DNA of 64,000 bases from Pedobacter sp. SYSU D00535 (GTDB lineage: Bacteria; Bacteroidota; Bacteroidia; Sphingobacteriales; Sphingobacteriaceae), in NCBI RefSeq assembly GCF_017355855.1, contig NZ_JAFEWD010000007.1, positions 62,001 through 126,000 on the forward strand, read 5' to 3'. Below, piece by piece: positions 30,889 to 41,578 of this stretch; the stretch's first letter is position 1, and the number at the start of each line of letters is the position of its first letter. The notes beneath the pieces were generated by a model. That model was not told the origin of the DNA and did no database searches. It was given only the letters and a program-made list of their open reading frames with translations. Position numbers and translations under genes: made by a program.

Positions 30889-32223
30889 TTATTCTGAAAC
30901 TAATTCTTGAATTGCAGCTTCTACCTTGTCAAAGTTGAAACCTGATTTGGTACTTTTGAAAGCCGCAGCAATTTGATCATTACATAGGTTACCGATGCTT
31001 CCTTCGTGCGTGTGTTGTACTTTTTCCGGGGCTTTGAATTCGCCTCTTTCAATCTCGTAGCCAACTTTCTTATACGCTTCGCGGAAAGGTACTCCTTTCA
31101 GTACTTCTTCATTAACTGCTTCTACGCTGAAAAGATAAAGGTACTTTTCATCCTTTAGAATCTCATCTTTAACTGAAATATTCTGAAGCATGAAGGTGGC
31201 CATCTCCAGACATTCGTTTAGTGATTGAAATGCAGGAAATAAGTTCTCTTTTAGCAACTGCAAGTCACGATGGTAGCCAGAAGGAAGGTTGGTCGTCATC
31301 ATTGCTATTTCATTGGGTAACGCCTGTATCTTATTACAACGAGACCGCATTAATTCAAACACGTCCGGGTTCTTCTTGTGAGGCATGATGCTCGAACCGG
31401 TGGTGAGTTCATCAGGGAAGCTGATAAATCCAAAGTTCTGGTTGATAAACAGCGTCACATCCATAGAAAACTTTGCCAGAGTGGCTGCAATGGAGGACAT
31501 CGCCTGAGCAAGAATCCTTTCTGTTTTTCCTCTTCCCATCTGGGCGTAGACGACATTGTAATTCAAAGAATCAAATCCTAACAATTCTGTCGTCATGGTA
31601 CGATTTAAAGGGAATGAGGAACCATAACCTGCGGCTGACCCTAGCGGATTTTTATTGCAAACCTTCCAGGCTGCCAGCATCATTTCAAGATCATCAACAA
31701 GGCTTTCCGCATAGGCTCCAAACCACAGGCCAAAGGAAGACGGCATGGCGATTTGCAGGTGCGTGTAGCCCGGAAGCAATTTTTCTTTATGTTCTTCGCT
31801 CAAGGTGATAAGTTGATTGAAGAGCGTTTCTGTGTTTTCTACCGTACGTTGGATCTGGCTTCTAAAGTAGAGCTTCAAATCGACCAAAACCTGATCATTC
31901 CTGGAGCGGCCGCTATGAATCTTCTTCCCAGCCTCGCCAACCCGCTGTGTAAGGAGAAGCTCCACCTGAGAATGGACATCTTCTACACCGTCCTCGATCA
32001 CAAATTGACCGTCCTCTATTTCCCTGTAGATATTCTTAAGCTCTTTCTGGACAAGGTCGAGGTCTTCTTTACTTAGCAGGTTGATACTCTCGAGCATTCT
32101 GGTATGAGCCAGAGAACCAAGTACATCAAAGGCTGCCATTTCAGCATCCAGCTCCCGATCTCGACCAACGGTGAATGTTTCTACTGATTTTTCTACCTGC
32201 TTATCTTTCTGCCAAAGCTTCAT
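30889..32223 (-). CDS. argH: Argininosuccinate lyase
   Basis: This 444-aa fumarase-superfamily enzyme splits argininosuccinate into arginine and fumarate. The signature GSSIMPHKKNPDVFE is intact, as are HSGRSRNDQV and the N-terminal LWQKDKQVEKSVE. Length fits the family. It is separated from argE by an inserted toxin-antitoxin pair, with 19 bp between the toxin stop and the argH start. Confidence 0.96.
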   Translation of the reverse strand: MKLWQKDKQVEKSVETFTVGRDRELDAEMAAFDVLGSLAHTRMLESINLLSKEDLDLVQKELKNIYREIEDGQFVIEDGVEDVHSQVELLLTQRVGEAGKKIHSGRSRNDQVLVDLKLYFRSQIQRTVENTETLFNQLITLSEEHKEKLLPGYTHLQIAMPSSFGLWFGAYAESLVDDLEMMLAAWKVCNKNPLGSAAGYGSSFPLNRTMTTELLGFDSLNYNVVYAQMGRGKTERILAQAMSSIAATLAKFSMDVTLFINQNFGFISFPDELTTGSSIMPHKKNPDVFELMRSRCNKIQALPNEIAMMTTNLPSGYHRDLQLLKENLFPAFQSLNECLEMATFMLQNISVKDEILKDEKYLYLFSVEAVNEEVLKGVPFREAYKKVGYEIERGEFKAPEKVQHTHEGSIGNLCNDQIAAAFKSTKSGFNFDKVEAAIQELVSE

Positions 32224-32841: not shown

Positions 32842-33903
32842 TTACCTCAACAATTTCTCCAAAATACTAATATATAGCTCTACGCCCTGGTAAATCTCGT
32901 CGATATGGATAAACTCGTCGGCAGAATGAGATCGAGCGCTGTCTCCGGGGCCTATTTTAACCGAAGTGATATCTAAAAGAGCTTGATCGCTGGTGGTTGG
33001 AGAGCCGTAGGCTTTACGACCTAAAGCAAGACCAGCCTGAACGAAGGGATGATCTATGCTTATTGAGGATGGCTTTAACCGAGTAGATCGCGGCGTAACC
33101 TCTGCCTCGACATGCTCTTTTATAATTGCGACAACCTCCTCATTCCGGTACGCATCAGTAACACGGACATCTACTGTAAACTTGCACTCTGCAGGAACAA
33201 CATTATGTTGAGATCCCGCATTGATCACAGTTACCGACATTTTAATAGGTCCAAAAAGCGTTGATTCTTTCGGAAACCTAAACGTTCGAAACCATTCAAT
33301 GTCTTTTAAGGCCTTGTAAATCGCATTTTCTCCTTCTTCTCTTGCTGCATGTCCGGCTTTACCGTGAGCTACGCAGTCTAACACGATTAGTCCTTTTTCG
33401 GCAATTGCCAGGTCCATCAAGGTTGGTTCACCTACGATAGCGAAGTCCAAAGGACCAAGCGAGGGTACTAATGATTCAATGCCATTCTTGCCCGATACTT
33501 CTTCTTCGGCTGTAGCAGCCATGCAGAGGTTATACCTTAAATCCTTCTGACCATAAAAATGCCTGAAAGTAGCAATCAGGGAAACCAGACAACCGCCTGC
33601 ATCATTACTGCCCAGTCCGTATAGTTTTCCATCTTCAACTTCTGCGGAAAAAGGATCGCGGGTATAGCCGGTATTAGGCTTTACTGTGTCGTGATGAGAG
33701 TTTAATAGGATGGTAGGCTTTGCAGGATCGTAATATTGATTAAACGACCAAATGTTGTTCTGCTGCCGCTTCGGATCAAGACCGTGTTCCCGAAAAAAGA
33801 ACTCGATAGCATCCGCTGTTTTATCTTCCTCCCGTGAAAAAGACGGAATAGCAATCAGGCCCTTTAATAAATCAATACTATCGTCGGCGAGCTGCTTTGA
33901 CAT
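32842..33903 (-). CDS. argE: N-acyl-ornithine/citrulline deacylase (ArgE-like, M20 family)
   Basis: A 353-aa zinc hydrolase removing the N-acyl group late in arginine synthesis. Motifs: LLNSHHDTVKPN (metal and catalytic Asp), GLGSNDAGGC, ATAEEEVSGKNGIESL (catalytic Glu) and a C-terminal SARSHSADEF. Because the carbamoyltransferase here is the N-acyl-ornithine type, the substrate is expected to be N-acyl-citrulline rather than N-acetylornithine (inference). Its ATG overlaps the proC stop as TAATG. Confidence 0.88.
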   Translation of the reverse strand: MSKQLADDSIDLLKGLIAIPSFSREEDKTADAIEFFFREHGLDPKRQQNNIWSFNQYYDPAKPTILLNSHHDTVKPNTGYTRDPFSAEVEDGKLYGLGSNDAGGCLVSLIATFRHFYGQKDLRYNLCMAATAEEEVSGKNGIESLVPSLGPLDFAIVGEPTLMDLAIAEKGLIVLDCVAHGKAGHAAREEGENAIYKALKDIEWFRTFRFPKESTLFGPIKMSVTVINAGSQHNVVPAECKFTVDVRVTDAYRNEEVVAIIKEHVEAEVTPRSTRLKPSSISIDHPFVQAGLALGRKAYGSPTTSDQALLDITSVKIGPGDSARSHSADEFIHIDEIYQGVELYISILEKLLR

Positions 33904-34724
33904 TAGTTCGTGTCTTTATAGAGTCCTGAAGCTTTAACCGCAGCGTGTTTGATTCCCTTGATCAAAGCGGCGCTGAAGCCGTTGTGCTCCATTTCGTTCA
34001 AGCCGGCGATGGTACAGCCCTTAGGAGAAGTCACTTTGTCGATCTCGTGCTCGGGATGTGTGCCATGAGCGAGCAATAGATCTGCTGCTCCTTTGGCAGT
34101 CTGAACCGCCATCTTTAAAGCATCTTCTGCATGAAAACCAATCTCGACACCACCCTGAGATGCTGCCCGAATTGATCTTAAGAAGAAAGCGATTCCGCTA
34201 GCGCATAAGGCTGTTGCAGACGACATCAGTTCTTCATTAATTTGAACCACTGAACCTACCGTTTCAAACAGGCGTTTTGTTAAGGCAACATTTACCTGAT
34301 TGGCGTTGTCAGTAGTAATACAAGTCATTGACTGCCCAATTGATATCGCTGTATTCGGCATTGCACGCACTACCTGAATATTTTCTTCTGCCAGTTGTGT
34401 CTTGATATCCCGACAGGCAACTCCCGTTACTACGGAAATGATTAGGTGCCTGCTAACATCAATTGCTTCTTTAATTTCAGCCAGCAGATTATTCAGCTGT
34501 TGTGGAAGAACAGCCAGCACTACGATTGAGGCGTTCGACACCGCTTCAAAGTTATTGATGGTGACATTGTAGCCCTGTTCCGCTTGCTTTGACAGGCCGT
34601 GCAGACTTCTGCGAGTTAACGTAATTTGAGAAGCCTGATAGGTTTGCGATTTTACCAATCCATCCGCGAAGGCTAAGCCCATATTGCCGCTTCCGAGTAT
34701 CGCCATGTTTCCGTTTAAGTCCAT
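33903..34724 (-). CDS. proC: Pyrroline-5-carboxylate reductase
   Basis: A 273-aa NAD(P)H-dependent enzyme making proline from pyrroline-5-carboxylate. The Rossmann motif MAILGSGNMGLAFADGL lies near the N-terminus, and the C-terminal signature region reads ALCASGIAFFLRSI and VTSPKGCTIAGLNEME. The ATG at 34724 (MDLNGNMA) begins one base after the argB stop; a TTG at 34733 is less likely. Its place inside an arginine operon suggests joint control of glutamate-derived proline and arginine. Confidence 0.92.
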   Translation of the reverse strand: MDLNGNMAILGSGNMGLAFADGLVKSQTYQASQITLTRRSLHGLSKQAEQGYNVTINNFEAVSNASIVVLAVLPQQLNNLLAEIKEAIDVSRHLIISVVTGVACRDIKTQLAEENIQVVRAMPNTAISIGQSMTCITTDNANQVNVALTKRLFETVGSVVQINEELMSSATALCASGIAFFLRSIRAASQGGVEIGFHAEDALKMAVQTAKGAADLLLAHGTHPEHEIDKVTSPKGCTIAGLNEMEHNGFSAALIKGIKHAAVKASGLYKDTN

Positions 34725-34725
34725 T

Positions 34726-35514
34726 TTATGCAAATAATCTGGTTCCGAATAATTGTTCTTTTAATGCCGGTAGCTCATCTGATTTACCGATATACACTTC
34801 TGTTACCCCACTATTGATTGCCTTGAAAGCATTCTCCAATTTGGGAAGCATGCCTCCTGCAATAATATTATCCGCTTTGAGGCTCTCAAATTCAGAGGAA
34901 CTGATTTCTCTGATCACCGAATCATCGCTCGTCACATCCCTTAAAACTCCCTTCTTCTCGAAGCAATAGACCAGGCTGGTTTTATGTGAACGCGCCATTG
35001 CTACCGCGATAGCCGACGCGATGGTGTCTGCATTTGTATTAAGGAGCTGGCCTTCGCCGTCATGAGTAATTGCCGAGAATACCGGAACTACTCCCGTTTT
35101 AAGCAGGGCGCTTAATTTCTCGCTGTCAACCGAATCCTCCTGAAGATCTCCAACGAAGCCATAGTCGATTTCCTTCACGGGACGACGTTTTGCACGGATG
35201 AGATTAGCATCCGCACCGGTTAAGCCGATAGCGTTGCATTGAAAGCGTTGCAATTGCGCCACAATATTTTTATTGATCAAGCCGGCGTAAACCATTGTTA
35301 CCACCCGGAGCGTCTCTATATCCGTAATTCTTCGGCCATCCACCATTTTAGGTTCGATACCAAGTGTGTGCGATAAATCCGTGGCGATTTTTCCTCCCCC
35401 ATGAATAAGGATTTTATACCCGTCTAAGGAACTGAAATCATTTAAGAAGTTATGGAGGTTTTCGGAGTTGTCGATGACATTTCCTCCAACCTTGATAATG
35501 TATAAAGGTTTCAT
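34726..35514 (-). CDS. argB: N-acylglutamate kinase
   Basis: A 262-aa amino acid kinase that phosphorylates N-acetyl- (or N-succinyl-) glutamate. It shows the N-terminal KVGGNVID, the phosphate loop HGGGKIATDL, VDGRRITD and GGMLPKLENA near the end. The ATG at 35514 overlaps the argF' stop (TAATG); a longer frame to 35562 would extend into argF'. The N-terminal helix of the arginine-inhibited form appears absent. Confidence 0.93.
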   Translation of the reverse strand: MKPLYIIKVGGNVIDNSENLHNFLNDFSSLDGYKILIHGGGKIATDLSHTLGIEPKMVDGRRITDIETLRVVTMVYAGLINKNIVAQLQRFQCNAIGLTGADANLIRAKRRPVKEIDYGFVGDLQEDSVDSEKLSALLKTGVVPVFSAITHDGEGQLLNTNADTIASAIAVAMARSHKTSLVYCFEKKGVLRDVTSDDSVIREISSSEFESLKADNIIAGGMLPKLENAFKAINSGVTEVYIGKSDELPALKEQLFGTRLFA

Positions 35515-36476
35515 TATTGCAAGCCCTCCAGAATTCCCTTCAACACCACCTGGGCAGCCCACACGCGGTTCGCTGCTTCCTTAATTACTAGTGAATCTTC
35601 GCTGTCCAGAATGTCTGAACCAAGTTCTAAATCCCGACGAACCGGTAAGCAGTGCATCACCTTGCCGCCATTGGTTACTTTCAGCTTCTCCTGATTCATC
35701 ATCCAGCCATCGCCGGCAGTTAAAATCTTACCATAATCCTCATAGCTGGACCAGTTCTTTACGTAGACAAAATCTGCTCCGGCTAAAGCTTCGTCCTGAT
35801 TGTAGGTGATTTTTGCTCCGGGAGTAAATTGTTCCGCCAGTTCATATCCTTCAGGATGGGTAATTACAAACTCAATCATTCCCTCCTGTTGCGCTTTGCA
35901 CATCCATTCGGCGAATGAATTAGGTACGGCCTGCGGAAGAGGCTTTACATGCGGAGCCCAGGTTAATACCACCTTTGGTTTCGCTGTGTTCTTATATTCT
36001 TCAATCGTGATCAAGTCGGCCAAACTCTGTAGTGGATGGCGGGTTGCACTCTCCAAACTAACTACTGGCTTACCGCTGAATCTAATAAACTTGTTAAAGA
36101 TATCTTCGCTGTAATCTTCTTCTTTATCTTTTAAAGATGGGAAAGAACGAATACCCAAAATATCGCAATACTCGCCCATTACGCCTGCAGCTTCCCGGAT
36201 ATGTTCTACTGTCGTCCCGTTCATCACAACCCCATCTCTCGTTTCTAATGCCCATCCCTCTTTGTCGATGTTCATTACAATCGGAGTCATGCCCAGATTA
36301 AGCGCTGCCTTTTGAGTACTTAAGCGGGTGCGAAGACTAGGGTTTAGAAATATTAAGCCGATGGTTTTATTTTTTCCGAGATCCTGATAAGCGAAAGGAT
36401 TTTTTTTAAGAGCTAATGCTTCCCGAACAATTGCAGGAACATTTGCAACATCGTGTACTGAAGTGAATAGTTTCAT
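35514..36476 (-). CDS. argF': N-acetyl-/N-succinyl-ornithine carbamoyltransferase
   Basis: A 320-aa transcarbamylase of the N-acyl-ornithine type. Carbamoyl-phosphate motif is FLNPSLRTRLSTQKA; substrate-loop segments are WAPHVKPLPQAVPNSFAEW and HCLPVRRDLEL. The proline-rich WAPH loop identifies the N-acyl subgroup rather than ordinary ornithine carbamoyltransferase. The residue that separates acetyl (Glu) from succinyl (Pro) enzymes aligns here with Val90 (GTTVEHI), so specificity is unclear. The ATG at 36476 was chosen; a frame to 36539 adds non-family residues. It begins the second transcription unit. Confidence 0.92.
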   Translation of the reverse strand: MKLFTSVHDVANVPAIVREALALKKNPFAYQDLGKNKTIGLIFLNPSLRTRLSTQKAALNLGMTPIVMNIDKEGWALETRDGVVMNGTTVEHIREAAGVMGEYCDILGIRSFPSLKDKEEDYSEDIFNKFIRFSGKPVVSLESATRHPLQSLADLITIEEYKNTAKPKVVLTWAPHVKPLPQAVPNSFAEWMCKAQQEGMIEFVITHPEGYELAEQFTPGAKITYNQDEALAGADFVYVKNWSSYEDYGKILTAGDGWMMNQEKLKVTNGGKVMHCLPVRRDLELGSDILDSEDSLVIKEAANRVWAAQVVLKGILEGLQ

Positions 36477-36536
36477 TTCTTTGAGGTGAAAGGTAAAAGC
36501 AGGAAGGTTAAAGATTCCCTGCAAAAGCCTTAAAGG

Positions 36537-36565
36537 CAAAATTATAAAAAAAGGCTATGCTTCAA
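36537..36565 (-). promoter_or_regulatory. Promoter of argF'-argB-proC-argE unit
   Basis: The minus strand has TTG (36565-36563), 18 nt, then TAATTTTG (36544-36537). The -33 element lies inside the upstream terminator loop and the -7 box overlaps the end of its T-run, so terminator and promoter are physically merged. Confidence 0.6.
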
Positions 36566-36619: not shown

Positions 36620-37768
36620 TTAGATGCTTACTTCTGCTGCTTTTAATATCCGATTGAAAGCGTCTAAGAATCGATCCGCATGAGCTTTCGATAAATTTAA
36701 AGCAGGAAGTAGTCTGATTACGTTTGGTTTTGCCTCTCCGGTAAAGATGTGGTGTTTGAACAACAGCTCTTTTTTTACATGACCCAGCTCCTCGGGTAAA
36801 TCAATTCCAATCATTAATCCACGACCCCTTACTTCTTTTATTTGAGGGAACTTTTGAAGCTCAGTTATGAGGTAAGTACCCACCTCAGAAGCATTTAGCA
36901 ACAAATTATCCTGTTCAATAACTTCTAGTACTGACAAAGCCGCAGCACAAGCCAGATGATTTCCACCGAATGTAGTTCCCAGCATTCCATGCCAAGGCTT
37001 GAATTTAGGAGCAATAGAGATCGCACCAATTGGAAAACCATTGCCCATTCCTTTCGCCATGGTGTATACGTCAGCATCTATTCCTGCAAAGTCGTGGGCA
37101 TAGAACTGACCGGTACGGCCGTATCCATCCTGAACCGAATCAGCAATAAAGACAGCATTGTATTGATCACAAAGCGAACGGATTTTCTGAAGGAAGGATT
37201 GTGAAGCTACCTTAATTCCACCAACGCCCTGAATTCCTTCAATAATCACTGCACAGATTTCATTGCCTTGTTCGGCAAATGCCTGTTCTATGGCAGCTTC
37301 ATCGTTATGAGGAAGGAATATTACGTTTTCGTTTTCATTAACCGGTGCTACGATCTTCGGATTGTCGGTAACCGTTACCGCTAAGGATGTCCGCCCGTGA
37401 AATGCGCCCTTGAATGCAATTACTTTTTTACGTCCGTTATAGAAGGAAGCAAGTTTCAATGCATTTTCATTGGCTTCCGCCCCCGAGTTAATTAAAAACA
37501 GGGTGTAGTCTTCTTTACCAGAGACCTGTCCTAGCGTTTCAGCCAGTTCCTTTTGAAGCGGTATTTCAACCGAGTTCGAATAAAATCCGAGTTGATTCAG
37601 CTGCTCTGTTACGCGAGCAACATAATGAGGATGAGTATGTCCGATAGAAATAACAGCGTGGCCGCCGTATAAATCAAGGTACTCTTGACCTTTGTTATCC
37701 CAAACTAAGCTACCCTGGCCTTTAACAATCTCAATAGGATTGATGGGGTAAACGTCAAATAAATTCAT
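36620..37768 (-). CDS. argD: N-acylornithine aminotransferase
   Basis: A 382-aa class III PLP aminotransferase forming N-acylornithine from the semialdehyde. The PLP lysine is in VYTMAKGMGNGFPIGA; LINSGAEANENALKLA binds phosphate and FKGAFHGRT follows. VYPINPIEIVKGQGSLVWD is the usual N-terminus. It ends the first arginine transcription unit before a strong terminator. Its 5' region carries purine-rich repeats that pair with a copy on the other side of the upstream ivp gene. Confidence 0.95.
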   Translation of the reverse strand: MNLFDVYPINPIEIVKGQGSLVWDNKGQEYLDLYGGHAVISIGHTHPHYVARVTEQLNQLGFYSNSVEIPLQKELAETLGQVSGKEDYTLFLINSGAEANENALKLASFYNGRKKVIAFKGAFHGRTSLAVTVTDNPKIVAPVNENENVIFLPHNDEAAIEQAFAEQGNEICAVIIEGIQGVGGIKVASQSFLQKIRSLCDQYNAVFIADSVQDGYGRTGQFYAHDFAGIDADVYTMAKGMGNGFPIGAISIAPKFKPWHGMLGTTFGGNHLACAAALSVLEVIEQDNLLLNASEVGTYLITELQKFPQIKEVRGRGLMIGIDLPEELGHVKKELLFKHHIFTGEAKPNVIRLLPALNLSKAHADRFLDAFNRILKAAEVSI

Positions 37769-38289: not shown

Positions 38290-39270
38290 CTAAAAGGCCT
38301 GTGCTTTAAGGCGAAGTCCTGCCCTCTCGTCTAAGCCAAACATCAGGTTCATGTTTTGAACCGCTTGTCCGGATGCCCCTTTTAATAAATTATCTATAAT
38401 GCTTAGTATCATTACCTTGTTTCCATGTTTCTCTACATGAACCAAGCATTTATTGGTATTCACGACTTGTTTTAAGTCGATGTTTTTCTTGCTTACATGA
38501 GTAAATTCATGCCCTGCATAATATTCTTCATATAGACTCTCCAGGTCCTCCTGGCTTAAGTCACATTCCGTGTATACCGAGGCCATGATGCCTCGGGTAA
38601 AGTCACCCCGGTACGGAATAAAGTTAATATCCGACTCAAATGCAGGCTGTAATTGCTTGATGCTCTCCCCGATCTCTTTCAAATGCTGATGACCAAAGGC
38701 TTTGTAAACGGATAAATTGTTATTCCTCCAACTGAAGTGGGAAGTAGCAGAAAGACTTTGTCCCGCTCCTGTCGAACCGGTGGTAGCGGAGATGTGTACT
38801 TCCTTGTTTAACAAACCAGCCTTGGCTAAAGGAAGCATTGCCAGTTGCAAACAGGTAGCGAAACAACCCGGGTTAGCAATATTCTGAGCGGATCTGATCT
38901 TGTCCCGGTTTAGTTCGGGCAAACCATAAACGAAGTTTTTACTAGCTATAGCTGCAGTTTTTCCCAGTCGGAAGTCCTGACTTAAATCGATAATTTTAAT
39001 TCGATCATCCACAGGATTTGCTTCCAAAAACTTTTTTGCGTCGCCATGTCCTACGCATAAGAAGAGCACGTCGATATCCTGAGATAAATCGCTAGTGAAT
39101 TTAAGGTCGGTATCGCCGATCAAATCCGTATGAACATCATAGATATAATTAACAGCGTTACTGTTACTGTGAACGAAAGAGATATCAACGTTAGGATGAT
39201 TTACCAGGATTCGAAGCAGCTCTCCTCCTGTGTATCCCGCTCCGCCTACAATACCTGCCTTAATTCTCAT
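38290..39270 (-). CDS. argC: N-acyl-gamma-glutamyl-phosphate reductase
   Basis: A 326-aa NADPH-dependent reductase producing the glutamate semialdehyde. The dinucleotide motif GGAGYTGGELLRIL is at residues 9-22, the catalytic Cys lies in NIANPGCFATCLQLA, and the conserved HQHLKEI and ATTGSTGAG follow. Its start overlaps the end of argG by 11 bp, indicating translational coupling. Confidence 0.95.
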   Translation of the reverse strand: MRIKAGIVGGAGYTGGELLRILVNHPNVDISFVHSNSNAVNYIYDVHTDLIGDTDLKFTSDLSQDIDVLFLCVGHGDAKKFLEANPVDDRIKIIDLSQDFRLGKTAAIASKNFVYGLPELNRDKIRSAQNIANPGCFATCLQLAMLPLAKAGLLNKEVHISATTGSTGAGQSLSATSHFSWRNNNLSVYKAFGHQHLKEIGESIKQLQPAFESDINFIPYRGDFTRGIMASVYTECDLSQEDLESLYEEYYAGHEFTHVSKKNIDLKQVVNTNKCLVHVEKHGNKVMILSIIDNLLKGASGQAVQNMNLMFGLDERAGLRLKAQAF

Positions 39271-40453
39271 CCGTATTTACGTTATGGTAAATTTTTACCT
39301 GGTTTCCAAATATCTTAGAGAAGCCTTTTACATCATCACCGGTATAACCTTCGTTCATTTCGCCATAGCTTCCAAACTTGCTAGCCATTAAATCATGTTT
39401 CGATTCAATACCGATCACCTGAAAACGATAAGGGTATAATTGCACAAAGACCTTTCCTGTAACCGTTTTTTGCGTATCAGCCAAAAATGCTTCAATGTTA
39501 CGCATCACCGGATCGTGGAATTGCCCCTCGTGCATCCAATTACCGTAGAACATAGAAAGTTGGTCTTTCCAGCTCAACTGCCATTTAGTTAAAGTGTGTT
39601 TTTCTAACGCATGGTGGGCTTTGATAATTACCATCGGAGCGGCAGCTTCAAAGCCAACCCGTCCTTTAATCCCAATGATCGTATCACCTACGTGAATATC
39701 ACGACCAATTCCGTAAGGAGCAGCGATAGCCTGAATAGCTTTAATTGCGTCTGTAGGATGCTCGTAGCTTGTTCCGTTCACTGCAACCAGCTCGCCTTTA
39801 TCAAACTCAACAATTAATTCTTCAGATTCAGTTTTAGTAACCTGAGTTGGCCATGCCTCTTCCGGAAGAACTCCTTTTGATTTCAGAGTTTCTTTTCCAC
39901 CTACCGAAGTTCCCCAAATACCTTTATTGATTGAGTAAGCAGCCTTTTCAAAGTTGAACTCCACTCCGTGGGATTTCAGGTACTCTATTTCTGCTTCACG
40001 GGATAATTTCAGATCTCGGATAGGAGTAATGATGCCAATATTAGGACAAAGGATATTGAAGATCATGTCGAACCGAACTTGGTCGTTGCCAGCACCAGTT
40101 GAACCATGGGCCACATAATCAGCTCCAATTTCTTTCGCATATTCAGCGATAGCAGTTGCCTGAGTTACACGTTCAGCACTTACAGAAAGCGGATAAGTAT
40201 TATTCTTCAACACATTACCATAAATAAGGTAACGGATGTAATCGTCATAATATCCCTTCACCGCATCAACAGCGTGGTGAGAAGCAACACCTAGAGCGTA
40301 TGCACGTTTCTCGATGTGCTCCAGCTCTTCTTTGCTAAAACCACCGGTGTCAACAATAACTGAGTGTACTTCAAGACCTAAGTCTTTAGAAAGGTAGATG
40401 GCACAATATGATGTATCTAATCCTCCGCTAAAGGCTAAAACTACTTTTTTCAT
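39260..40453 (-). CDS. argG: Argininosuccinate synthase
   Basis: A 397-aa enzyme joining citrulline and aspartate with ATP. The PP-loop LAFSGGLDTSYC lies at the N-terminus; GSTGAGNDQVRFD and GIWGTSVGGKE follow. The family is usually about 400 aa. The position before argC in the operon means citrulline must already be free, consistent with deacylation of N-acyl-citrulline by ArgE. An 87-bp gap separates it from the GNAT gene. Confidence 0.95.
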   Translation of the reverse strand: MKKVVLAFSGGLDTSYCAIYLSKDLGLEVHSVIVDTGGFSKEELEHIEKRAYALGVASHHAVDAVKGYYDDYIRYLIYGNVLKNNTYPLSVSAERVTQATAIAEYAKEIGADYVAHGSTGAGNDQVRFDMIFNILCPNIGIITPIRDLKLSREAEIEYLKSHGVEFNFEKAAYSINKGIWGTSVGGKETLKSKGVLPEEAWPTQVTKTESEELIVEFDKGELVAVNGTSYEHPTDAIKAIQAIAAPYGIGRDIHVGDTIIGIKGRVGFEAAAPMVIIKAHHALEKHTLTKWQLSWKDQLSMFYGNWMHEGQFHDPVMRNIEAFLADTQKTVTGKVFVQLYPYRFQVIGIESKHDLMASKFGSYGEMNEGYTGDDVKGFSKIFGNQVKIYHNVNTDEN

Positions 40454-40540: not shown

Positions 40541-41254
40541 TTATAAGTGTAAGTATTTTGGAACCAGCGTGACAAAGCCTACCAAAACTTTTGCTGAGCG
40601 TTTGATAGAATCTTCTATGCGCTCAAGCAGAGAAGATTTGTGCGTCATCTCCTTTTCTCTCGCTTCTTTAGCTGCCTTTTCGGCTGCTGCTCTTTCCTCA
40701 GCTTCCTTCTGTTTTTCAACAGGATCAAAAAGCATCGCCGTGCAGAGACAGTTTTTGCGGCCTTTTGCTGTTAGGATATCAAAGTTAACACAGCTCTGGC
40801 AGCCTTTCCAGAAATTCTCATCCTGTGTCAGTTCGGAGTAAGTCACGGGCTCGTAACCCAGCTCCGAATTGATTTTCATCACAGCCAGGCCTGTTGTTAA
40901 ACCGAAGATCTTTGCGTCAGGATATTTTTCTCTTGATAATTCAAAAATCCGCTTCTTAATAGCCTTTGCTAACCCGCACTTTCTAAACACCGGATTAACA
41001 ATCAGCCCCGAGTTGGCAACGAATTCTCCGTGACTCCAGGTCTCAATATAGCAGAAGCCCGCCCAGGTTCCATCTTTATGCAAAGCAATCACCGCCTTGC
41101 CCTCGATCATCTTATCAGCCACGTATTGCGGACTGCGACGAGCTATACCAGTGCCCCGAGCTTTCGCCGATTCTGCCATTTCATCACAAATCTGTTCTGC
41201 ATACCCGGCATGCGCTTCAGATGCTACTACTACAGAGAAATCGTTTTCGTTCAT
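40541..41254 (-). CDS. GNAT acetyltransferase heading the arginine operon, candidate N-acylglutamate synthase
   Basis: A 237-aa protein with one GNAT domain (about 5-145). The acyl-CoA loop follows the central strand FVANSGLIVNPVF and reads RKCGLAKAIKKRI. A cysteine cluster follows (CQSC 152-155, CLC 169-171), then a charged helix rich in Glu, Lys and Ala (178-205) and an amphipathic C-terminus. It is the first gene of an operon with argG and argC and no argA or argJ is visible, so it is the best candidate for the missing first step, acylation of glutamate (inference). The cysteines may bind metal or act in feedback control. Confidence 0.75.
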   Translation of the reverse strand: MNENDFSVVVASEAHAGYAEQICDEMAESAKARGTGIARRSPQYVADKMIEGKAVIALHKDGTWAGFCYIETWSHGEFVANSGLIVNPVFRKCGLAKAIKKRIFELSREKYPDAKIFGLTTGLAVMKINSELGYEPVTYSELTQDENFWKGCQSCVNFDILTAKGRKNCLCTAMLFDPVEKQKEAEERAAAEKAAKEAREKEMTHKSSLLERIEDSIKRSAKVLVGFVTLVPKYLHL

Positions 41255-41257
41255 TTC

Positions 41258-41277
41258 AAAAAATCCGTTTATACGGA
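41258..41277 (-). promoter_or_regulatory. Candidate attenuator hairpin before the GNAT gene
   Basis: The minus strand reads TCCGT-ATAA-ACGGA then six T's, ending 3 nt before the ATG at 41254. The TCCGT arm also occurs at an Arg codon of the leader ORF (minus 41405-41401), so the ACGGA arm could pair with either copy. The stem is only 5 bp. Confidence 0.45.
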
Positions 41278-41370
41278 ATAAGACTTTAATTGTTGTCTTT
41301 GGACCTAATCAGAAAATATTGTTAACTAAATTACCGCGAAAGGGTATATCAAAAGGGCTGCCAAACAGAA

Positions 41371-41502
41371 TCAAAATCTGGGCATGAACGGTCGTCGGGG
41401 ACGGAAGATTAATTTTTCACTGTATTTTGGACGTACCATAGCGCATACATAAGCAATTTTTGCTTCTGCTGCGGTAACGATATTTAAGATGGATACGTTC
41501 AT
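41371..41502 (-). CDS. Arginine-rich leader ORF (43 aa), candidate leader peptide
   Basis: ATG at 41502, TGA at 41371. The last twelve residues, IFRPRRPFMPRF, contain four arginines (codons CGT, CGA, CGA, AGA); a fifth Arg lies at residue 24. It is preceded at about 40 nt by a complete promoter and lies in the 5' leader of the arginine operon, 116 bp before its first gene. No SD sequence is visible, as is common in this phylum. It could instead be a chance ORF or a small functional protein. Confidence 0.5.
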   Translation of the reverse strand: MNVSILNIVTAAEAKIAYVCAMVRPKYSEKLIFRPRRPFMPRF

Positions 41503-41546
41503 TTTCTTTCTTCGACTAACAGTGCGTGAATTAGTTTAAAACAGTG

Positions 41547-41578
41547 CAAAAGTATTGAATAAAAAATAACTATTACAA
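41547..41578 (-). promoter_or_regulatory. Promoter of the first arginine transcription unit
   Basis: The minus strand has TTG (41578-41576), 21 nt, then TACTTTTG (41554-41547), a full match to the Bacteroidetes consensus. Predicted start is near 41541, which gives a leader of about 285 nt. Confidence 0.65.

Follow-up and report, generated by a model that had tools for sequence, protein, structure and literature searches.

A short arginine-rich ORF precedes a presumed arginine operon

The window analysed here is a stretch of 64,000 nucleotides from Pedobacter sp. SYSU D00535, and the genes described below lie on its minus strand. The first of them encodes a GNAT-family protein (40541..41254) whose match to Acetyltransf_1 falls just under the cut-off and for which no NCBIfam match was obtained. 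Pfam/NCBIfam-type profile matches identify argG (39260..40453), and profile matches likewise assign argC (38290..39270) and an argD-like class III aminotransferase (36620..37768); between the latter two, on the same strand, sits a gene for a 23S rRNA intervening-sequence-type protein (PF05635; 37840..38202). There follow an argF-like gene (35514..36539), whose best NCBIfam match, below cut-off, is N-acetylornithine carbamoyltransferase, an amino acid kinase (34726..35562), a pyrroline-5-carboxylate reductase-like (proC-like) gene (33903..34733), an M20 peptidase-family protein (32842..33903) and a member of a lyase family (30889..32223). The kinase, peptidase and lyase are named argB-like, argE-like and argH-like by inference. 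Judged by gene order and spacing, the genes from GNAT to argH-like presumably form a single transcript. The GNAT protein, which has an orthologue in 228 of 251 genomes of the family, may be the source of the acetyl group if, as the argF-like gene suggests, the route runs through N-acetylated ornithine.

The full Bacteroidetes promoter that a first-pass annotation had placed upstream of the first gene is present on the minus strand (41547..41578). By sequence pattern it is of the Bacteroidota type, with TTG (41578-41576) separated by 21 bases from TACTTTTG (41554-41547), and a transcript start is presumed near 41540. Within the 150 bases upstream of the ORF described below, the pattern TTG-N17-23-TAnnTTTG occurs in 43 of 118 leader loci, compared with 49 of 4000 random 150-mers, the loci being counted without correction for kinship. 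Where present it always lies 26-44 nt ahead of the leader ATG; it was not found in the 150 bases searched upstream of the remaining 75 ORFs. Directly upstream of the -33 TTG, an imperfect palindrome, CTGAAT-N11-ATTCAG, spans 41602-41580. Two relatives (L033 and L034) carry AGATGAAT-N10-ATTCATCT at this position, and two others (L035 and L046) have no counterpart. A dimeric regulator binding there may add a second layer of control.

Between promoter and GNAT gene lies an ORF of 43 codons (41371..41502, minus strand), which we assign as a leader peptide ORF on its conservation in relatives. Read from 41502 to 41371 it encodes MNVSILNIVTAAEAKIAYVCAMVRPKYSEKLIFRPRRPFMPRF, with the C-terminus RPRRPFMPRF; as first described, four of the last twelve residues are arginines. 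An Arg-Arg pair encoded by CGA CGA (codons 36-37; 41392..41397) stands six sense codons ahead of the stop codon, and 116 bases separate the stop from the GNAT gene. The sequence CACTGT at 41524-41519 (and again at 41546-41541), 5' of the ORF, is complementary to ACAGTG at 41423-41418 inside it. Similar pairs were seen by eye in several relatives, and a long-range helix ahead of the Arg codons is possible.

The ORF and its Arg-Arg pair are conserved in relatives

Retention of the ORF across Sphingobacteriaceae had been named as the check on the proposal of an arginine leader peptide. Our strict test asked for an ATG-initiated ORF of 38-47 codons that ends 70-185 bases before the GNAT gene and has Arg-Arg (RR) in its last 13 residues. 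The ORF was retained: 59 of 60 family regions, chosen among the higher-scoring GNAT matches listed, passed, compared with 0/60 on the reverse strand and 0.27% of Markov-resampled sequences; the figure does not describe genus g13, because this low-scoring genus is absent from the matches listed. The same test was passed by 27/29 loci of one set (L003-L031) and 31/36 named loci of another (L032-L067), with some species in both sets, and two of the seven misses (L022 and L045) have an ORF with a GTG start. Among 44 named loci outside the family, 8 passed the strict test, and 38 passed when ATG, GTG or TTG starts and 28-60 codons were allowed (reverse strand 0/44; Markov-resampled sequences 2.05%). 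Of the GNAT loci in the phylum sample, 38 besides the two of family f11 described below were given a loose leader test, and only 15 passed, against 4/38 on the reverse strand; the leader is therefore not shown for all GNAT-bearing families. In family f23, short ORFs that end in PRRR and use CGG codons lie upstream of the GNAT gene at three loci (L236, L250 and L252).

Within the family, the leaders fall into groups that we name after loci with matching leaders: Sphingobacterium (L061 and L063), Mucilaginibacter (L043, L047 and L048) and Parapedobacter/Olivibacter (L044, L041 and L045), in addition to the group that contains the window. The length of the ORF is nearly fixed in each of three groups, at 43-44 residues in 22/23 window-group sequences, 44 residues in 21/22 Sphingobacterium-group sequences and 41 residues in 22/25 Mucilaginibacter-group sequences. 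Third codon positions vary most in all four testable groups (134 changes versus 95 and 79 at the other positions, 193 versus 136 and 127, 506 versus 360 and 413, and 191 versus 120 and 112). In the body of the ORF, non-synonymous codon changes exceed synonymous ones in every group (150 versus 71, 226 versus 97, 660 versus 253 and 207 versus 81), and amino acid constraint there is weak. The conserved part is the C-terminal motif R-R-x-[FIY]-x-P-R. Beyond the family, the tail takes other forms (SRRPRI, PRRGC, VRRP and IPRRR) and the Arg residues stay.

In g13, a large genus, all 26 loci analysed contain a similar ORF at the same place, with the pair reading RQ in 24, RH in one and RR in one (L268). 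The residues after the pair are kept, for example NFTPRI, giving the tail R-Q-x-[FY]-T-P-R-I, and the first tail Arg is CGG in the 25 loci matched. A second, more distant GNAT copy was seen in 11 of the 26 g13 genomes (L260-L285).

These patterns bear on the reading that the ORF is incidental and that the RNA is conserved solely as a structured 5' UTR or as a riboswitch. The conserved nucleotides overlap helices, the ORF body is weakly constrained, and no Rfam riboswitch, T-box or leader model matched the window or five relatives, which leaves room for an unknown RNA. The nearly fixed ORF length, the excess of third-position changes in the four groups and the persistence of the Arg residues while the surrounding RNA changes argue for a translated ORF, and we regard an incidental ORF as the least probable of the readings considered. 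Two leaders searched against Pfam had no match to DUF2618 or to any other family at E up to 1. A genome search for a second copy of the leader motif was discarded, having returned the leader itself and one site with one mismatch, compared with six matches for a reversed control pattern.

The arginine pair is written almost invariably as CGA CGA

To describe codon use at the pair, we took the distinct tails with a pattern requiring R and then R or P near the end of the ORF; loci without this pattern never entered the set. Of 130 such tails, three without RR were dropped and 127 counted, g13 not being included. CGA CGA encodes the pair in 105 of the 127, and CGA accounts for 230 of the 254 codons at the pair. 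In the same ORFs, only 37 of 158 Arg codons after the pair and 39 of 214 before it are CGA, and across 29 ORFs of the window CGA makes up 68 of the 617 Arg codons. The enrichment at the pair over these internal controls gives Fisher values of 1e-45 (after the pair) and 3e-61 (before the pair), uncorrected for kinship. More distant families use CGT or CGC (f4) or CGG (f23); the CGA rule therefore covers most of the family and most Chitinophaga-like loci, not the phylum. Relatives retain the regulatory Arg codons, with the exception of g13, in which the pair reads RQ at 24 of 26 loci.

In the genome of the window, 49 tRNA genes were found, including one tRNA-Arg gene for each of the anticodons ACG, TCT, CCG and CCT. 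No tRNA-Arg(TCG) was among the 49 genes, for which 150 of 314 first candidates were scored. The set found contains no tRNA-Ile, and one gene (L218) has no clear anticodon. Given the share of candidates scored and the gene without a clear anticodon, further tRNA genes may have been missed. Going by the tRNA genes found, CGA would be read by the single tRNA-Arg(ACG). Conversion of such an ACG anticodon to inosine is established knowledge.

Work on Salmonella offers a precedent for the sensitivity of such a pair. The same tRNAs are reported to read CGA poorly relative to CGU and CGC, and Arg-Arg pairs containing CGA to de-attenuate the his leader strongly; the slowest single codon in that study is AGG rather than CGA (PMC4046918). 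At Salmonella orf34, frequent Arg codons are described as being as effective as rare ones (PMC6386406). According to a theoretical treatment, attenuators prefer whichever codon responds most sharply to supply (PMC1183508). The commoner codons CGT and CGC should be decoded by this one tRNA as well, which makes the near-invariant CGA pair a natural experiment in the synonymous codon choice of attenuators.

The codon choice also bears on an alternative to codon starvation, arrest by the nascent peptide, in which the conserved C-terminus itself would halt the ribosome in response to arginine. TnaC, SpeFL and the fungal arginine attenuator peptide are the relevant comparisons. Several features would suit such an arrest: within the family, conservation extends to residues other than RR, the length of the ORF is almost fixed, and g13 keeps its characteristic tail with one Arg codon at the pair. 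The peptide sequence leaves the choice of CGA unexplained, however, and outside the family it is the Arg residues that stay while the tail around them differs. We consider peptide arrest improbable.

Arginine codons may pair with the GNAT start region in two groups

An RNA structure was drawn for the Sphingobacterium group from an alignment of 21 of its 22 sequences (L137, which is near L135, was left out). A hairpin across the leader stop and a second hairpin have complementary loops, a putative kissing interaction, and a long-range helix connects CGACCTA, at the RR codons, with TAGGTCG, which lies some 10-17 bases upstream of the GNAT ATG. The 28 pairs of this structure are formed in 90.1% of cells, compared with 25-39% when one side is slid by 1-3 columns, a control that favours the structure because it was drawn from the same sequences. 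Double-sided changes number 33 compared with 12.3 after shuffling, and none of 500 shuffles reached as high. This covariation falls mainly in the enclosed hairpins, mostly the second. Of the four helices, the one between RR and the start region is weakest, with 78.3% of cells paired: five of its pairs are invariant, one covaries (U-A, C-G, U-G), one is kept in 18/21 sequences and the two outer ones are mostly unpaired.

The predicted cost of opening the GNAT start in the Sphingobacterium group falls from 10.0-11.1 kcal/mol with RR free to 6.2 kcal/mol with RR masked (means, n=22). In the Parapedobacter/Olivibacter group it falls from 10.8-11.1 to 8.7 kcal/mol (means, n=14). Masking has little effect in the Mucilaginibacter group (5.9-6.2 to 5.4 kcal/mol, n=25) and no mean effect in the window group (10.1-10.7 to 10.1 kcal/mol, n=23). 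The two arms also score better with each other than with partners from other groups in the Sphingobacterium (18.1 versus 9.5) and Parapedobacter/Olivibacter (15.9 versus 11.1) groups, and no better in the Mucilaginibacter (10.7 versus 10.4) and window (11.2 versus 12.3) groups. A significant helix between RR and the start was found for only 3/25 Mucilaginibacter-group sequences and 4/23 in the window group, namely the window, L004 and the pair L019/L055, which share one leader. The helix therefore fails as a general rule: it does not apply to the Mucilaginibacter group or to most window-group members. From the Chitinophaga group no sequences were scored, because a clear ATG start of the GNAT gene was not found there.

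According to these models, pairing between the RR codons and the GNAT initiation region is possible in the Sphingobacterium and Parapedobacter/Olivibacter groups; a ribosome paused on the codons in the Sphingobacterium group would thus open GNAT translation. Covarying hairpin arms were found in the Sphingobacterium group, and few members of the window group have the helix from RR to the start.

The window is predicted to form a related helix. In its lowest-energy fold, CGTTCAT (41384..41390, minus strand), which begins within the Pro codon after RR, pairs with ATGAACG at the GNAT start codon (41248..41254), the 3' arm of the predicted OFF helix. CGTTCAT ends directly 5' of a predicted hairpin across the leader stop codon (P1, GCC/GGC plus CAGA/TCTG; 41360..41383), and the hairpin at this place covaries in the Sphingobacterium group. 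Masking the CGTTCAT region lowers the predicted opening cost from 11.0-12.5 to 8.0 kcal/mol, and the 7-bp helix has a shuffle p of 0.005. It is identical in one of the two genus-mates (L004) and absent from the other (L003). L019/L055, the latter being Hufsiella arboris, form a similar helix in a displaced position, and the remaining window-group members have no significant one. As few sequences share the helix, and as the fold taken as a whole is unexceptional (z -1.18), the switch logic in the window is a prediction, in which the 7-bp helix would play the role of the Sphingobacterium helix.

A terminator-like hairpin precedes the GNAT start

Two short hairpins lie between P1 and the GNAT ATG, and together they are matched by only 1 of 200 shuffles (z -2.98). 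The first, AAGAC/GTCTT (41280..41299, minus strand), was assigned by folding and alignment. Only a small hairpin emerged, among the output rows listed, when a common RNAalifold fold was sought for the whole window group, because the downstream region aligns poorly. The second, TCCGT-ATAA-ACGGA (41277-41264), is present as first reported, with six T (together 41258..41277), then GAA and the ATG at 41254; it may be terminator-like or a structure of the initiation region. The copy of its TCCGT arm reported at an Arg codon of the ORF exists too, at the Phe-Arg codons TTC CGT. The alternative pairing built on that copy did not survive comparison: the copy reads TTT CGT in the two genus-mates and is absent from the other groups.

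The main rival to translational control takes the same sensor to a transcriptional output. TCCG-loop-CGGA with its T run would be an intrinsic terminator, prevented by ribosome pausing as in trp- and his-type systems. Besides the terminator-like pattern at 41277-41264 and the rarity of the two hairpins among shuffles, the 21-row window-group alignment retains a CGG-T element holding this hairpin, with CGG followed by T-rich sequence and a run of at least four T in 17/21 rows, and its innermost stem pair varies between T-A, C-G, A-T and T-G (by eye). Against this, the stem has just 4-5 pairs, the T run is short in L005, L033, L040 and L055, and the terminator pattern alone is not rare (one in the window against a mean of 0.6 in shuffles). 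This hairpin was not found before GNAT in the rows listed of the Sphingobacterium or Mucilaginibacter alignments. The hairpin is predicted in every ribosome state tested in the window (0.97, 0.76, 1.0 and 0.98). We judge a transcriptional output unlikely, less so than peptide arrest. The original suggestion was that stalling either switches termination or masks the start region. Control at the start fits better, as the Arg codons can pair with it in the Sphingobacterium and Parapedobacter/Olivibacter groups; for termination, the kept T run speaks in favour, and the presence of the hairpin with or without a stalled ribosome (0.76-1.0) against.

A further possibility is Rho-dependent termination 3' of the leader stop, which translation of the leader would counteract; it would fit the C-rich, G-poor stretches noticed there by eye in several groups. 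A ribosome paused at RR would not cover such a stretch and would give the response no obvious direction. We consider this reading very improbable.

A leader peptide as a probable arginine sensor

As in ribosome-mediated amino acid attenuators, a short ORF lies before a biosynthetic operon and contains codons for the amino acid that the operon makes. The core of the first-pass annotation, an Arg leader peptide acting as arginine sensor, stands: its conservation, the near-invariant CGA-CGA and the lack of ArgR matches (below) strongly support a peptide that would sense arginine for the arg operon. We propose that a transcript from about 41540 would first encode the 43-residue leader peptide. With arginine short, the single CGA-reading tRNA-Arg would be poorly charged, and the ribosome would pause at CGA-CGA, masking the RNA at and just 3' of the pair. 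The GNAT start would then be left open and the arginine operon translated. With arginine sufficient, termination at the leader stop would be normal, and the RR stretch would pair with the GNAT initiation region, closing over the stop-codon hairpin; this helix would damp translation. Stalling, the direction of the response and a translational rather than a transcriptional output are inferred steps of this scheme. We hold it probable, with moderate confidence, that the leader acts as an arginine-responsive translational on-switch in which the pause opens the GNAT start, and such a switch is the most likely output.

By analogy, the closest known system is Salmonella orf34-speF. There, arginine is sensed by two adjacent Arg codons of a short ORF upstream. 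The ribosome binding site further downstream is governed by a hairpin 3' of the leader stop together with alternative structures, and low arginine switches expression on, as proposed here (PMC6386406). Unlike the present operon, its target is ornithine decarboxylase rather than arginine synthesis, and RR stands at codons 12-13. In that leader the rare CGACGA was functional and so was the frequent CGCCGC, Rho and RNase G take part, and the peptide belongs to DUF2618, which the leaders here do not match (PMC6386406). For codon logic, the nearest analogue would be rbfL of Staphylococcus aureus, in which rare Arg codons and one scarce tRNA-Arg affect downstream translation initiation. The paused rbfL ribosome, in contrast to our proposal, blocks the downstream start, so that low arginine represses, and the target is a biofilm regulator (PMC13009471).

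His and trp attenuation share with the present case a leader ORF that contains codons for the amino acid its operon makes and a strong synonymous bias at the regulatory codons (PMC1183508). The present operon, in contrast, is for arginine and probably has a translational output, and in the Sphingobacterium group the regulatory codons themselves contribute to the pairing arm. Within the same phylum, leader-peptide attenuators have been inferred before amino acid operons of Flavobacterium psychrophilum; the passages available name no arginine leader, and an arginine instance may already stand in the supplement (PMC9723704). In the main texts of the open-access literature searched, we found no arginine leader for Bacteroidota.

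ArgR and the GNAT gene rarely co-occur

No ArgR (PF01316) was found in the genome of the window, and membership of an ArgR regulon was not observed there. Nor was ArgR found in any of 151 family genomes, of which 138 are clean and have a completeness of 90% or more; as a control, the PF01316 search returned matches in 9 of 14 genomes, including Bacteroides ihuae. The leader is a candidate regulator of arginine synthesis for bacteria in which no ArgR is detected, and its two-codon sensor can be put to the test.

In an even sample of 296 genomes of the phylum, ArgR was detected in 110 and the GNAT gene in 125. We dropped as doubtful the ArgR of G279 (five copies, E 1.6e-7) and G302 (E 1.1e-5) and the GNAT of G422 (E 8.7e-4), which left 108 and 124 genomes, respectively, with both in only two (Fisher 3e-31, uncorrected for kinship). 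ArgR and this GNAT gene rarely co-occur in the phylum sample, and their near-exclusion suggests that protein-based and ribosome-based control have been exchanged for one another within one phylum.

A broader picture is put forward tentatively, as possible rather than probable. A large part of the Bacteroidota would lack an arginine repressor and have arginine synthesis under a leader peptide instead. The paired regulatory codons of this peptide, kept as the poorly decoded CGA, would also belong to the RNA arm that shuts the start of the first gene, uniting sensor and switch in a single short element. ArgR and the GNAT operon would replace each other across the phylum, argR lying directly before GNAT where both occur. 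The two genomes with both genes belong to family f11 (L233 and L234), with argR directly upstream of GNAT in each. No leader-like ORF was found upstream of the f11 argR genes: L234 has no RR ORF, and L233 has three short RR ORFs, unlike the leader and unlike each other.
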